From Candidatus Zhuqueibacterota bacterium (GTDB taxonomy: Bacteria; SM23-31), in assembly GCA_022562855.1 (NCBI GenBank), contig JADFON010000163.1, forward strand, positions 1 to 5,404: 5,404 nucleotides of DNA. The letters are read 5' to 3'. Below, piece after piece: positions 41 to 5,404 of the stretch. A program made the translations under genes and the position numbers. A model generated the notes under the pieces. It was not told the DNA's origin. It was given only the letters and a program-made list of their open reading frames with translations, and ran no database searches. Every line of letters starts with the position of its first letter. Within the stretch, counting starts at the first letter, position 1.

Positions 41-3040
41 ATGAAAAGAAACCCAAAAATAAAATCCGGCAGGTCCACTGATAAAGCCCCCCGAATGCCC
101 CAAAAGAAAGGGGCAGGCAGGGACAGGCGGGACAATCTCAAGAATGCGTTGCATGAAGACCATTGTCAAATTGGCTTTGGCAGGCGGTCTTTCCTGAAAA
201 TAGGCGCTTATTCCGTTGCGACTGCAGCCTTGACAGGCTGCCAACGACCCGTTGAAAAGGCAATCCCCTACCTGAACAAACCCGAAGAAATTACACCGGG
301 AATAGCCAACTGGTACGCCTCTACCTGCGGCGCATGTCCTTCGGAATGTGGAATCCTGGTGAAAACACGCGAGGGCAGACCGGTTAAACTTGAAGGAAAT
401 AAACTTGATATTCGATCAGGAGGAGGTTTATGCGCCGTAGGGCAGGCCTCGATTTGGTCGCTGTATGATTCGGAACGGATGAACGCTCCAATGATAAACG
501 GTACCGCTTCAAGTTGGAATGATATTGACGAACTGGTACCGGGGCAGATCATGAATGCAGCTCAGCAGGGGAAAAAGACTTATCTGCTGACCGGTAGTAT
601 TGTTAGTCCTACAATTCGCGAAGCGATCGGCAGATTCTTAAATGTATTTCCAGATGCAACTCATATAGAATATAATGCCGTTTCTCATTCGGCTATAGCC
701 GAATCGCACCGCCGGACTCATGGAAGAGAGGTTATCCCATCGTACCGATTCAATAATGCAAAAGTGATCGTGGCATTTAATGCCGATTTTCTTGGAACGT
801 GGTTATCGCCTGTTGAATTTACTGCACAATATTCTTCCGGAAGGCGTCTCGAAACTGATGACGCTGTGATGTCCCGGCATATTCAGTTTGAATCAAGAAT
901 GTCTTTGACAGGCAGTAACGCAGACCTGCGTGTTCCCGTTTCCCATGATGAGGAAAAACAATCCCTTCTTTATCTCGCAAGGCTTATTACTGAAAAGTCA
1001 TCCACACAAAATATAAGTGGCAGCGAAAGACGTTTCGCTGAGATTTCACAACCTTCAAACAATACATTGAGCAATCACATTGTTAGAACCGCCGAAGAAT
1101 TATGGACTGCTAAAGGAGAAAGCTTACTTATATGCGGTACTAATGATGTAAACACCCAGTCTATCGTTAATTACATCAACCATGGACTGGGAAATTACGG
1201 AAATACAATAGTCTTTAATCGTTCACACAATCAATTTGCGAATAACGATTCCGATGTTGTTGATATGGTTAATGACATGAACAATGGCGGCGTGGGAACG
1301 TTGATAGTTTGGAACACGAATCCGGCATATCATTATCCGGAGGCAGATGAATTTTTGGCAGGATTGGAACGTGTAGACATAAAGATATCGCTTTCCGGCT
1401 GGAAAGACGAGACCGCCGGACAGATGACATTTCTCTGCCCCGATCATCATTTCCTCGAGGCATGGGGCGACGCAGAAGTTGAGAATGGTTATTATACCGT
1501 GCGTCAGCCGACCATCAGACCCTTGCATAATACACGTCAAGGCGCCGAATCCCTGCTGAGATGGGCGGGAATTGAAACGAATATGTATGATTTTCTGAAA
1601 AACTTCTGGAACACAAATATATTCCCCAATCAAAGCTCGATTAGTGATTTTCAATCGTTCTGGGATTCGACGCTTCATGACGGTATCTATTCCGGAAGCA
1701 ATTCCATGAGACAAAGTTCCTCAGTAAACTCATCCCGTTACTCCTTTAACTTCGGGCAACTGGATGACACGCTGACACAATTGTCATCGCAGATTTCTCT
1801 ATCCGGTGAAAGTAATTCGGAATTTGAGCTCGAGCTTTATGAATCCGTGGCTTTACGCGACGGTTCTTCCGCCGGAGTTCCCTGGTTACAGGAATTACCC
1901 GATCCTATTACAAAAGTTACCTGGGACAACGTGGCGCTCATTGCTCCATCAACAGCGGAAAGTTTAGATTTACATGACGGAGACGAGATACGTGTTACAT
2001 CTAATGGTAAGACAATTCATCTTCCTGTTCTTGTTCAACCGGGACAGCATGAAAAAGTAATTTCCACAGCTTTAGGATATGGACGCCGTAATGCCGTAAA
2101 CGCCGGCAAAAAAGTAGGTGTAAACGCATTCGGATTGATTTCATTTAAAGAATCGGCGTTTAAATATAGCGGCGAAACAATTCAAATTGAACCGACCGGA
2201 AATCGTGTCAATCTTGCAAAAACGCAAACACATAATTCCTCCGAAGGAAGAGACCTCGTCCGTCAGTTTACATTTGAAGAATTCAAAAGTGAAAACTTCC
2301 ACGGTCTCGAAGAATCCCATACGCTTCCAAACATGTGGAGCGACCATGACCATAAAGACCATCGATGGGCAATGACTGTCGATCTCAATACCTGTACGGG
2401 CTGCAGTGCCTGTATAATAGGATGCCAGGCAGAAAATAATATTTCAACAGTCGGCAAAGAGGAAGTATTTAACCGGCGCGAAATGCACTGGATACGGATT
2501 GACCGGTATTACAATAACGATACAGTGCAGCATCAACCAATAATGTGCGCCCATTGTGACAAAGCACCCTGTGAAACAGTCTGCCCTGTGCTCGCTGCCG
2601 TTCACAGTAGCGATGGCTTGAACATACAAAATTATAACAGGTGCATCGGGACTCGTTATTGTGAAAATAACTGCCCCTATAAAGTACGGCGGTTCAACTG
2701 GTTTGAATATGCTCGTGATAAACCCCTCGAAAATCTGCAATTGAATCCGGATGTCACGGTCAGGAGCAGGGGGGTCATGGAGAAATGCACGTTTTGTGTA
2801 CAGCGCATCCAGGAAAAAAGGATCAAAGCGCGAAGGGAGAACCGGCCGGTGCAGGACGGCGAAATACAAACAGCGTGTCAGCAAAGTTGTCCCGCTGGCG
2901 CTATTGCTTTCGGAGATATGAACGACCCGGATAGCAAAGTATCAAAGTTAATAGAGCAAAACCGTTCCTATCGCCTTCTGACTGAATTAAACGTCGAACC
3001 GGCTGTGTGGTATCTTGCGAAAATAAGAAATCAAGCTTGA
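41..3040 (+). CDS. actB: ActB, Fe-S / molybdopterin-like subunit of Alternative Complex III
   Basis: This 999-residue protein is the periplasmic electron-transfer subunit of ACIII, a fusion of a molybdopterin-oxidoreductase-like half and an NrfC/PsrB-like ferredoxin half. A Tat motif (RRSFLK, residues 48-53) precedes a hydrophobic stretch ending in LTGC (Cys67), a possible lipidation site. The family block RPVEKAIPY follows. Cys96, Cys99, Cys103 and Cys131 form a C-x2-C-x3-C-x27-C motif typical of the proximal [4Fe-4S] cluster of molybdoenzymes. The block PDHHFLEAWGD (467-477) and a C-terminal molybdopterin-dinucleotide-type barrel (about 625-705) are ActB-like; characterised ActB proteins carry no Mo cofactor. 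The ferredoxin half has cysteines 785/788/791/795, 836/839/844/848, 868/874/878 (Thr871 replaces the second Cys) and 916/919/946/950, which predicts three [4Fe-4S] clusters and one [3Fe-4S]. The ATG at 41 has no clear Shine-Dalgarno; an in-frame ATG at 95 is the other option. In-frame stops at 8 and 32 bar any earlier start. Length is normal for ActB. Confidence 0.95.
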   Translation: MKRNPKIKSGRSTDKAPRMPQKKGAGRDRRDNLKNALHEDHCQIGFGRRSFLKIGAYSVATAALTGCQRPVEKAIPYLNKPEEITPGIANWYASTCGACPSECGILVKTREGRPVKLEGNKLDIRSGGGLCAVGQASIWSLYDSERMNAPMINGTASSWNDIDELVPGQIMNAAQQGKKTYLLTGSIVSPTIREAIGRFLNVFPDATHIEYNAVSHSAIAESHRRTHGREVIPSYRFNNAKVIVAFNADFLGTWLSPVEFTAQYSSGRRLETDDAVMSRHIQFESRMSLTGSNADLRVPVSHDEEKQSLLYLARLITEKSSTQNISGSERRFAEISQPSNNTLSNHIVRTAEELWTAKGESLLICGTNDVNTQSIVNYINHGLGNYGNTIVFNRSHNQFANNDSDVVDMVNDMNNGGVGTLIVWNTNPAYHYPEADEFLAGLERVDIKISLSGWKDETAGQMTFLCPDHHFLEAWGDAEVENGYYTVRQPTIRPLHNTRQGAESLLRWAGIETNMYDFLKNFWNTNIFPNQSSISDFQSFWDSTLHDGIYSGSNSMRQSSSVNSSRYSFNFGQLDDTLTQLSSQISLSGESNSEFELELYESVALRDGSSAGVPWLQELPDPITKVTWDNVALIAPSTAESLDLHDGDEIRVTSNGKTIHLPVLVQPGQHEKVISTALGYGRRNAVNAGKKVGVNAFGLISFKESAFKYSGETIQIEPTGNRVNLAKTQTHNSSEGRDLVRQFTFEEFKSENFHGLEESHTLPNMWSDHDHKDHRWAMTVDLNTCTGCSACIIGCQAENNISTVGKEEVFNRREMHWIRIDRYYNNDTVQHQPIMCAHCDKAPCETVCPVLAAVHSSDGLNIQNYNRCIGTRYCENNCPYKVRRFNWFEYARDKPLENLQLNPDVTVRSRGVMEKCTFCVQRIQEKRIKARRENRPVQDGEIQTACQQSCPAGAIAFGDMNDPDSKVSKLIEQNRSYRLLTELNVEPAVWYLAKIRNQA

Positions 3041-3064
3041 AAATACAAAGAGAAACGGATTTAC

Positions 3065-3068
3065 AGGA
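3065..3068 (+). promoter_or_regulatory. Putative ribosome binding site of actC
   Basis: AGGA lies 4 bases before the ATG at 3073, and only 1 base before the adjoining in-frame ATG at 3070. It is the only Shine-Dalgarno-like sequence close to the possible starts, so it favours 3073, although the spacing is short. The upstream GTG at 3007 lies inside actB and has no such site. Confidence 0.4.
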
Positions 3069-3072
3069 CATG

Positions 3073-4512
3073 ATGGAAAATTCCGATATATCTACAATCA
3101 GGTATCCGTTAGTCAAGGAAGATAAAAGCTATAAGCAGGTAACTGACGACATCACCGGTATTCTGAACAGGAAACCCGGAAAAGGATGGTGGATTGCCAT
3201 TTCCGTGTCATCGGTAATGCTGCTTCTTGGTATCTACTCTGTCTGGGTTACTTTTACAGTTGGAATCGGAACGTGGGGGCTCAATAAAACAATCGGCTGG
3301 GGTTTTGCGATAACAAACTTTGTTTTTTGGATAGGAATAGGTCACGCAGGTACTCTTATCTCCGCTGTACTTTTTCTGTTTCGTCAAAAATGGCGGACAG
3401 CCATAAACCGTTCTGCGGAGGCGATGACCATTTTTGCCGTGATCTGTGCCGGTCTTTTTCCAATTATTCACCTGGGAAGACCGTGGCAATTTTTCTGGAT
3501 CATACCTTATCCAAATTTCAGGGGACCTCTTTGGGTAAATTTCCGCTCCGCATTAATGTGGGATTTCTTTGCTATTTCGACTTATTTCACTATTTCCCTG
3601 CTGTACTGGTATCTTGGAATGATACCCGATCTTGCGACTGCACGGCATAGAGTGAAATCTAAAGTAAAACGATTTGTTTACCGCTTCTTGAGCTTACGGT
3701 GGAACGGTTCAAGCAGCGACTGGGCACGGTATGAAACCGTGTATCTCCTCTTAGCCGGTCTTGCTACTCCTCTGGTACTCTCGGTGCACAGCATTGTTAG
3801 CTTTGATTTTGCCACGAGTCTTATTCCCGGATGGCATTCGACAATTTTTCCACCATATTTTGTTGCCGGCGCAATCTTCTCAGGTCTTGCAATGGTTATG
3901 ACCCTTCTCATACCAATGCGAAGATTTTTTGGACTAAAAGCATATATTACAACGAAGCATCTTGAAAATATGTGCAAGCTGATTATTCTCACTTCTTGGA
4001 TAGTGCTGATCTCCTATTTAACAGAATTCTGGATATCATGGTATAGTGGAAATCCTTATGAACATTATATTTTTCTGAACCGCGCTAACGGTTTTTATCT
4101 TGTGATATTCTGGATCTCGATAATCTGTAATACTCTGATTCCCCAGTTGTTCTGGTTTAAAAAACTCAGAACATGCGTTCCGGTGATATTTGTGATTTCT
4201 ATATTAATAAATGTAGGTATGTGGTCGGAACGGTTTATAATTGTAGTTCAGTCGCTTCACCGCGATTTTCTGCCGTCAAGCTGGGCGACATACACGCCGT
4301 CGCTCGTTGAGATTGGAATTTTCGTAGGCAGTTTTGGACTTTTCTTCACATTATTCCTGCTCTTTGCGAGGTTCTTTCCGGTCATTTCCATTAGCGAGAT
4401 AAAGGGTGTTTTGCTGCTGGGGAGGGATGGAAATGGGAGAGCCGAAAGTGCCGGAAACACTCCTCAAGAATTAAATACTGAAAAAAACAAGACGGCGAGG
4501 AAAAATCCATGA
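3073..4512 (+). CDS. actC: ActC, NrfD/PsrC-like quinol-binding membrane subunit of Alternative Complex III
   Basis: This integral membrane subunit is where menaquinol is thought to be oxidised, passing electrons to the Fe-S clusters of ActB. The 479 residues show about ten hydrophobic segments, near 39-60, 77-103, 117-135, 158-183, 223-243, 261-283, 302-322, 340-362, 368-393 and 411-435, as expected for ActC. Family blocks are very clear: PLVKEDKSY near the N-terminus, GIGHAGTLISA (88-98), FRQKWRTAINRSAEAMT (103-119), HLGRPW (133-138), GPLWVNF (151-157), LSVHSIVSFDFATS (236-249), IPGWHSTIFPPYFVAGAIFSG (251-271), and SLHRDFLPSSW (394-404). Candidate quinone- or proton-pathway residues are His133, Asp164 and Asp245, by analogy with the family. 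The last 30 residues are polar and probably disordered. The ORF stays open back to a GTG at 3007 inside actB, but the conserved region begins only after the twin ATGs at 3070/3073. The stop overlaps the actD start (ATGA), which suggests translational coupling. Confidence 0.95.
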   Translation: MENSDISTIRYPLVKEDKSYKQVTDDITGILNRKPGKGWWIAISVSSVMLLLGIYSVWVTFTVGIGTWGLNKTIGWGFAITNFVFWIGIGHAGTLISAVLFLFRQKWRTAINRSAEAMTIFAVICAGLFPIIHLGRPWQFFWIIPYPNFRGPLWVNFRSALMWDFFAISTYFTISLLYWYLGMIPDLATARHRVKSKVKRFVYRFLSLRWNGSSSDWARYETVYLLLAGLATPLVLSVHSIVSFDFATSLIPGWHSTIFPPYFVAGAIFSGLAMVMTLLIPMRRFFGLKAYITTKHLENMCKLIILTSWIVLISYLTEFWISWYSGNPYEHYIFLNRANGFYLVIFWISIICNTLIPQLFWFKKLRTCVPVIFVISILINVGMWSERFIIVVQSLHRDFLPSSWATYTPSLVEIGIFVGSFGLFFTLFLLFARFFPVISISEIKGVLLLGRDGNGRAESAGNTPQELNTEKNKTARKNP

Positions 4513-5060
4513 ATGAACGATATTACCTGGGATATTTTACATCTGAAGCTAATTTACGCAGGGCAGCGGATGCAGTTCGTGAGCATGATTTCCAGGTTCA
4601 TGACATTTATACTCCTTATCCGGTACATGGGATAGAGGCTGCCATTGGATTTAAACGATCCCGTCTGGCGGTGGTCGGTTTTGGCGCAGGTACCGTTGGG
4701 CTTATTCTTGCTGTCTTCTTTCAATACTGGACGACCGGGTTTGACTGGCCCTTGATCGTAGGTGGGAAACCCCTCAATTCCTGGTCGGCATTTGTTCCGG
4801 TAATCTTCGAATTGACCGTATTATTTGCAGGAGTAATCGGTTTAATCGCATTATTTGTCCGCTCCCGTCTCTGGCCCGGAAGAAATCAACCGATAATACC
4901 CGAAGGTACAGATCATCTTTTTATTCTTGTACTAAAAGAAGGAAATGCAAGATTTATTCAAAATACAGCAGAAAAGATATTTTTAGAATGCGGCGCAATC
5001 AAACTCGAAGAGGGAATTACCGTTGAAAGTTCAGAGCCAATAGTAATCGCAAACTCTTAA
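4509..5060 (+). CDS. actD: ActD, DUF3341 membrane subunit of Alternative Complex III
   Basis: This 183-residue protein is the small DUF3341 subunit of ACIII. It carries no cofactor motif and is known as a structural partner of the membrane core; a role in proton movement has been suggested for the family but is unproven. A soluble N-terminal domain (1-50) contains the family signature DIYTPYPVHG (32-41), followed by two transmembrane helices at about 53-74 and 94-118. The second begins with PVIFELTVLFAG (97-108), whose buried Glu101 belongs to the conserved FELTVL block. A short C-terminal domain includes the typical DHLFILVL strand (135-142). The start is secure: GAGG at 4497-4500 lies 8 bases before the ATG, and the ATG overlaps the actC stop by 4 bases. 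DUF3341 directly after an ActC-type NrfD protein separates this operon from polysulfide reductase, Nrf and Qrc loci. Confidence 0.93.
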   Translation: MNERYYLGYFTSEANLRRAADAVREHDFQVHDIYTPYPVHGIEAAIGFKRSRLAVVGFGAGTVGLILAVFFQYWTTGFDWPLIVGGKPLNSWSAFVPVIFELTVLFAGVIGLIALFVRSRLWPGRNQPIIPEGTDHLFILVLKEGNARFIQNTAEKIFLECGAIKLEEGITVESSEPIVIANS

Positions 5061-5152: not shown

Positions 5153-5404
5153 ATGAATGTTAATCGCAAATATCGGATATTATTGTGGATTCTGTGTTTT
5201 TTGTCACCGGTTCTTGTCATTTTTCTTCTTACTGTTTTGACCAGAAATTATTCGGAACCGAATTACGTTTGGCCCACGCAAATGCAAAATGACGCAGCCG
5301 CCAGTCCATACGAAGCGAATCCGGTACTGCCAATCGGTTTTACAATGCAGCATCCTGTCCAAGGGACAATTCCACGCGGATATCAGCCGTTCCATTACGA
5401 TACC
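5153..5404 (+). CDS. actE: ActE, cytochrome c subunit of Alternative Complex III (5' part only)
   Basis: An open frame runs from the ATG at 5153 to the window edge (84 codons, no stop), so only the N-terminus is seen. ActE is normally a periplasmic, membrane-anchored monohaem cytochrome c that helps pass electrons out of ACIII. Here a short basic start (MNVNRKYR) is followed by a hydrophobic segment at about residues 9-30. A family-like stretch comes next: SEPNYVWPTQM (35-45), NPVLPIGFT, then HPVQGTIPRGYQPFHYDT at the end. The HPVQGTI.RG block just after an EPNY-type segment is what marks it as ActE. The haem motif CxxCH lies beyond the window, so haem binding is not shown. Only Cys15 is present in the signal region and it is not in a good lipobox. 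The gap after actD is 92 bases (5061-5152), AT-rich, with no clear Shine-Dalgarno, terminator hairpin or promoter, so co-transcription with actD is likely. Confidence 0.85.
   Translation, partial: MNVNRKYRILLWILCFLSPVLVIFLLTVLTRNYSEPNYVWPTQMQNDAAASPYEANPVLPIGFTMQHPVQGTIPRGYQPFHYDT

Follow-up and report, generated by a model that had tools for sequence, protein, structure and literature searches.

The alternative complex III (ACIII) encoded in the window (the whole stretch of 5,404 nucleotides that we analyzed) probably has one more iron-sulfur cluster than the complexes of known structure. Four cysteines in the molybdopterin-oxidoreductase-like half (B1) of its ActB subunit have the spacing C-x2-C-x3-C-x27-C, and on the evidence of the sequence we consider it quite likely that they bind a fifth cluster, a [4Fe-4S], in B1. 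The solved relatives all lack this motif, and many unstudied bacteria have it, so the textbook picture of ACIII seems to come from lineages that lost a part. We suggest that the usual description of ActB, with four clusters and a cofactor-free B1, fits the lineages that lost an ancestral site; 50 of the 173 ActB ORFs in our sample keep it. Below, we refer to ActB with all four cysteines as Cys+ and to the others as Cys-.

The act locus

The window is one whole contig of the host assembly and contains the act genes B-C-D-(E), with a contig end on either side (Table 1).

Table 1. Features of the act locus (residue numbers are those of ActB).
Feature	Position	Strand	Description	Basis or remark
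actB	41..3040	+	999 aa; ACIII subunit in which B1 (molybdopterin-oxidoreductase-like) and B2 (four-cluster) are fused	
Twin-arginine motif	179..199	+	GRRSFLK, residues 47-53 (Tat export)	sequence
Lipobox	230..241	+	LTGC, residues 64-67	sequence
Four-cysteine motif	326..433	+	C96-x2-C99-x3-C103-x27-C131; predicted FS0/N7-like [4Fe-4S] site	codons: Cys96 326-328, Cys99 335-337, Cys103 347-349, Cys131 431-433
Ser215	683..685	+	aligns with the Cys that presumably binds Mo in Psr/Arr (8 of 9 rows have Cys)	alignment
B2 domain	2363..3037	+	residues 775-999, 15 Cys	CIGTRYC plus CxxC motifs for FeS2-4
actC	3007..4512	+	NrfD family	first in-frame ATG at 3070
actD	4509..5060	+	PF11821, with FVP..FE segment	
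actE (start)	5153..5404	+	monoheme cytochrome c, cut at contig end	position and N-terminal sequence

ActB is homologous over the whole length of B1 and B2 to the four solved ActB proteins (phmmer E of 1e-170 to 1e-187). An AlphaFold2 model of the protein (mean pLDDT 84, pTM 0.89) matches the solved ActB with Z of 36-41 over about 870-880 residues, and it matches ArrA and PsrA with Z of 29.3 and 28.5. The two arginines of the Tat motif are aligned across nearly all of the ActB, Psr, Arr, and Qrc rows. Judging from the lipobox, Cys67 is likely the lipidated first residue of mature ActB, and the solved chain 6btm_B begins at the equivalent cysteine. In B2, Thr871 of CIGTRYC replaces a ligand cysteine, which is the signature of the [3Fe-4S] cluster FeS1 of ACIII, and the cysteine pattern as a whole fits one [3Fe-4S] and three [4Fe-4S] predicted sites.

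ActC keeps the counterparts of His139, Ser164, Asp169, His247, and Asp253 of R. marinus ActC (for their roles, see PMC8076601 and PMC5928083), and its quinol-site residues (the counterparts of His139, Ser164, Asp169, and Asp253) are intact. The actE fragment has no Pfam match, and we did not find the window's own actA or actF in the host assembly. Most of the Cys+ relatives with enough flanking sequence have the full actA-B-C-D-E-F set, although some have no recognized E or F; ActA in these loci has 5 hemes.

Four cysteines that are absent from the solved complexes

The spacing and the coordinates of the four cysteines are exactly as given in an earlier sequence-only reading of this DNA. This exact spacing should arise by chance in about 3e-4 of proteins; when we shuffled the B1 half 200,000 times, a looser form of the motif appeared in 11 cases. 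Residues 91-138 match the Pfam family Molybdop_Fe4S4 with 31.2 bits (gathering cut-off 22.7). In phmmer alignments, the solved ActB proteins (6btm from F. johnsoniae, 6f0k from R. marinus, 6lod from R. castenholzii, and 8k9e from C. aurantiacus) do not have any of the four cysteines. The alignment therefore does not refute that reading's proposal of an additional cluster.

The absence agrees with what has been reported about the solved complexes. Domain B1 of R. marinus ActB carries no prosthetic group (PMC5928083), a review lists four clusters for ActB, one [3Fe-4S] and three [4Fe-4S] (PMC8076601), and a study of the superfamily describes the cofactors as lost in ActB (PMC10100899). The window shares with the solved ACIII of R. 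marinus, F. johnsoniae, R. castenholzii, and C. aurantiacus the Tat-exported ActB fusion, the B2 motifs with the threonine substitution at the [3Fe-4S] site, the order of ActC and ActD, and the quinol-site residues. The solved complexes differ in having no B1 cysteines, and B1 is empty in R. marinus (PMC5928083). A B1 without a prosthetic group, as described for solved ACIII, is not what the sequence of the window's ActB predicts, as the FS0 ligands are present. We nevertheless count it as a variant of ACIII because family members differ in the B1 cluster site, and those without the site are in a derived state.

Related proteins with the same ligands

The motif CX2CX3CX27C for a [4Fe-4S] cluster was already reported from the split ActB1 of iron-oxidizing Beta- and Zetaproteobacteria (PMC4643136). 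There it is also part of an act cluster, but ActB1 and ActB2 are separate genes, while they are fused in the window. In the literature that we covered, which was partial and did not extend to subscription papers on ACIII diversity, we found no paper which says that fused ActB had the four cysteines ancestrally or that many fused ActB have them.

Proteins of the DMSO reductase family such as ArrA and PsrA have the FS0 ligand columns and the B1 fold in common with the window, but they are catalytic, with Mo-bisPGD, and their FeS subunit is separate. QrcB and QrcC are a related B1/B2 pair that are likewise separate proteins. QrcB has been described as free of cofactors. The window's ActB is not part of a QrcABCD complex by our comparison: it scores 125.7 bits against the QrcB equivalog, whose cut-off is 440, and its B2 is fused.

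The closest parallel in another complex is cluster N7 of NuoG/Nqo3, which has the identical C-x2-C-x3-C-x27-C spacing, lies in a molybdoenzyme-like domain without Mo, and was lost in some lineages; N7 is off the electron path. In E. coli NuoG, it is bound by Cys228, Cys231, Cys235, and Cys263, while ovine complex I has Asp, Asp, Ser, and Ser, plus waters (PMC8357420).

What does B1 bind?

The four motif columns are cysteine in all 9 of the ArrA/PsrA-type rows that we sampled, and across ActB the four residues are kept or lost nearly as a set (see below). Homologous columns and all-or-none conservation thus bear out the predicted fifth cluster site. A fifth column, which is cysteine in 8 of 9 Psr/Arr rows and is likely the Mo ligand there, varies in ActB, where it is often serine whether or not the four cysteines are present. 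In the window's ActB, several of the Gly, Ser, and Asn residues that Psr/Arr conserve (GS/GG, at the pterin site) are replaced or deleted. Given Ser215 and the missing pterin-site residues, we predict a cluster without Mo in B1.

B1 could instead be a catalytic molybdoenzyme with Mo-bisPGD and FS0, as the FS0 motif and the fold match to ArrA and PsrA might suggest. Serine at the position of the Mo ligand would not by itself speak against this, as serine is the Mo ligand of some molybdoenzymes. But Cys- ActB often has this serine too, and its solved members do not have Mo (PMC5928083); the pterin-contact positions are replaced or deleted, and ActB has no match to PF00384 in Pfam. We rejected a catalytic Mo enzyme because of the ligand and pterin residues, and we consider it highly improbable. 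It is also improbable, if less so, that the cysteines are unmetallated, either as disulfides or as neutral leftovers. ActB does end up in the periplasm, a compartment in which disulfides form. However, the exact ligand spacing is maintained across deeply divergent ActB, with almost no intermediate states, and Tat substrates fold with their cofactors before export, as B2 must.

Distribution and ancestry of the four cysteines

We examined ActB from 80 named loci and from 386 genomes, of which 117 had an ActB-like match, and our counts rest on the 173 ActB ORFs of at least 850 amino acids. Since the named loci were ranked by their likeness to the window, the counts (four ligand cysteines in 50 ORFs, three in 1, two in 0, one in 20, and none in 102) describe the sample and not natural frequencies. 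The motif is conserved between ActB proteins that are just 34-50% identical, and of the 52 rows that we counted, 49 have a gap of 27 residues before the fourth cysteine. Named Cys+ examples are from Blastocatellia, Acidobacteria gp6, Planctomycetota, one Spirochaetia MAG, and one Bacteroidota MAG. The sequence-only reading had guessed that the motif was not unique to this organism, and these other Cys+ proteins do rule out uniqueness. Act clusters in which B1 and B2 are separate likewise keep the four cysteines.

To place these proteins, we built a tree of B1 with FastTree, excluding the motif columns, and rooted it with ArrA and PsrA-type proteins. The split ActB, the QrcB-like proteins, and the basal fused ActB in this tree are all Cys+. 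As read from these sequence trees, the four-cysteine state is ancestral in ActB and was lost several times. The Cys- state needs 7-8 changes on the FastTree B1 tree, with at least 5-6 forced by well-supported branches, and 8 changes, with 7 forced, on a full-length IQ-TREE tree. Forcing all Cys- ActB together made the tree worse by 319 log-likelihood units (AU p = 1.5e-7), so a single loss is rejected. Parsimony alone cannot separate gain from loss, but repeated regain of four exact ligands is much less likely than their loss. That all or nearly all of the ligands were lost together, several times, suggests that the four cysteines work as a unit. A few Cys+ rows (L069 and L073) fall inside the Bacteroidota part of the tree, which could reflect loss in their neighbors or transfer.

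In the full-length tree, the window's ActB pairs with one from Blastocatellia; both belong to a group of nine Cys+ rows, and this clade lies beside the F. johnsoniae-type (Bacteroidota) clade. The sequence-only reading had proposed that this ActB might be an early-branching form that retains ancestral features. The tree agrees that the feature is ancestral, but it puts the protein in a derived clade. Nor does the motif mark one subgroup, as that reading also considered: the Cys+ proteins form a paraphyletic grade over many families.

Association with nitrate reductase

We found nar genes upstream of act in 9 of 10 close Cys+ relatives of the window, and the 123 Cys- loci have no nar genes at all. 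At least NarI, and in some cases more of narGHJI, is encoded ahead of act in L035, L036, L056, L171, L172, L173, L179, L183, and L193 (the window's clade and its close neighbor L036), and L054 has NarK-type transporters, at a contig edge. A common order is narG-H-J-I-narK-narK-actA-actB, and there are variants with narK downstream of actF. A tenth Cys+ match that was scored as nar (L181) was discarded, as it is another molybdoenzyme and not a clear NarG.

The host genome has narH (partial)-narJ-narI-narK on another contig (L286, G000:C313, 1-3461), with narH cut by the contig start and narK by the contig end. Both narH and narK are interrupted in frame, narH by a TGA close to where it starts in the contig and narK by a TAG; these stops could be assembly errors or decay. 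A search of this genome for NarG with a Blastocatellia query gave no match, and narH, narJ, narI, and narK were found afterward. These genes fit the order in the clade, narG-H-J-I-narK-act, and we infer that they join to the window.

Similar clusters have been seen before. A report on Planctomycetota MAGs (PMC10732223) describes nar with six act-like genes and proposes that they encode either a new nitrite reductase resembling NrfAH or a component of the respiratory chain; the section that we consulted does not discuss the B1 cysteines. Like the window's clade, those clusters as described there have a 5-heme cytochrome, a fused Mo-like/4Fe4S protein, NrfD, ActD, a monoheme cytochrome c, and ActF downstream of nar. 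From this description, ACIII is the likely identity of this nar-linked "unknown complex."

Given the nar-narK-act array, the ACIII of this clade is probably the complex III of nitrate or denitrification respiration. NCBIfam identifies the NarG of L035 as the product of a true narG, and we found no Tat motif in its first 200 residues, so NarG of this type is likely cytoplasmic and would take electrons from quinol itself. Because Nar oxidizes quinol and is apparently cytoplasmic, direct transfer from ACIII to Nar is unlikely; ACIII would instead supply electrons to cytochromes in the periplasm and to later denitrification steps.

The same genome encodes a second, canonical ACIII that is Cys- (L004, G000:C373, 3-13698). 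There, actB is followed by ActC-F, sco, and cox2-cox1-cox3 for an aa3-type oxidase, which this second complex presumably serves. Across the 103 loci with enough downstream sequence, cox genes follow 3 of 40 Cys+ clusters and 53 of 63 Cys- clusters (Fisher p 3e-15), a contrast that we treat as a lead because it amounts to about four independent pairs, which is not significant.

In seven Cys+ loci (L155, L160, L163, L170, L175, L176, and L181), there is also a gene whose product weakly matches CydA and has cytochrome c at its C-terminus, a domain that Pfam identifies in the L155 member. This protein is a possible alternative partner of ACIII.

What might the cluster do?

We propose that the window's ActB belongs to a quinol-oxidizing ACIII that kept the FS0 site of its molybdoenzyme ancestor and lost the molybdenum cofactor. 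The FS0 cluster would be assembled in the cytoplasm ahead of Tat export. It would carry the wire of FeS1-FeS4 on from B2 into B1 and serve there as a redox center or, at a minimum, a structural one, comparable to N7 of complex I. Electrons from quinol would still exit mainly from FeS1 via the hemes of ActA and ActE to periplasmic carriers.

The cluster might be purely structural, a relic that stabilizes B1 and transfers no electrons, and we give this somewhat less than an even chance. N7 has the same spacing and has met the same fate, in that its molybdoenzyme-like domain is free of the cofactor and its ligands were lost in other lineages. N7 has been described as a relic that lies too far away to transfer electrons and, going by the title of a work cited there, as essential for stability (PMC9474812, PMC8357420). 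The repeated losses in ACIII also imply that the complex can manage without FS0. On the other hand, N7 is remote from the chain of complex I, while FS0 of CISM enzymes adjoins the distal cluster of the partner subunit. Since ActB keeps the pairing of B1 and B2, FS0 is probably within reach of FeS4.

Alternatively, FS0 might be a point of electron exit or entry that connects FeS4 with another partner docked on B1, which would make this ACIII a branched enzyme. FeS4 is near the surface and FeS2-4 have no known role (PMC5928083). Few of the Cys+ clusters are accompanied by cox genes, and some lie with nar or with a gene for the CydA-like/cytochrome c protein, so the partners of Cys+ and Cys- complexes appear to differ. 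Yet with about four independent comparisons, the cox contrast is not significant given the phylogeny, we identified no partner protein, and NarG here is probably cytoplasmic, so we view an exit or entry at FS0 as rather unlikely. A broader idea is similarly tentative: that ACIII was originally a five-cluster enzyme with FS0, that a large living class, including the nar-linked branch, uses FS0 with a second partner, and that the solved structures represent a reduced form of a branched complex. The FeS2-FeS4 wire of ACIII could be probed by comparing a Cys+ with a Cys- complex, and this organism may carry the two side by side.

Partial sites and split clusters

About 20 Cys- ActB, mostly from Bacteroidota (L038, L040, L041, L051, L065, and others), have a single ligand cysteine, usually the third (equivalent to Cys103), which is perhaps a vestige. 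The ActB of L178 (G347:C509) is missing one ligand, the first (Ser, Cys, Cys, Cys). The QrcB of L251, which has by far the best score for the QrcB family, keeps the same three and likewise has serine at the first position. A three-ligand site of the L178 type could hold a [3Fe-4S] cluster or none. The QrcB-like proteins of L252, L253, and L254, which score just over the QrcB cut-off, have all four FS0 cysteines. Six act-like clusters with separate B1 and B2 (L231, L232, L233, L234, L235, and L236) are all Cys+, and some of them have no recognized ActD or ActF; by appearance, these clusters stand midway between Qrc-type complexes and ACIII.
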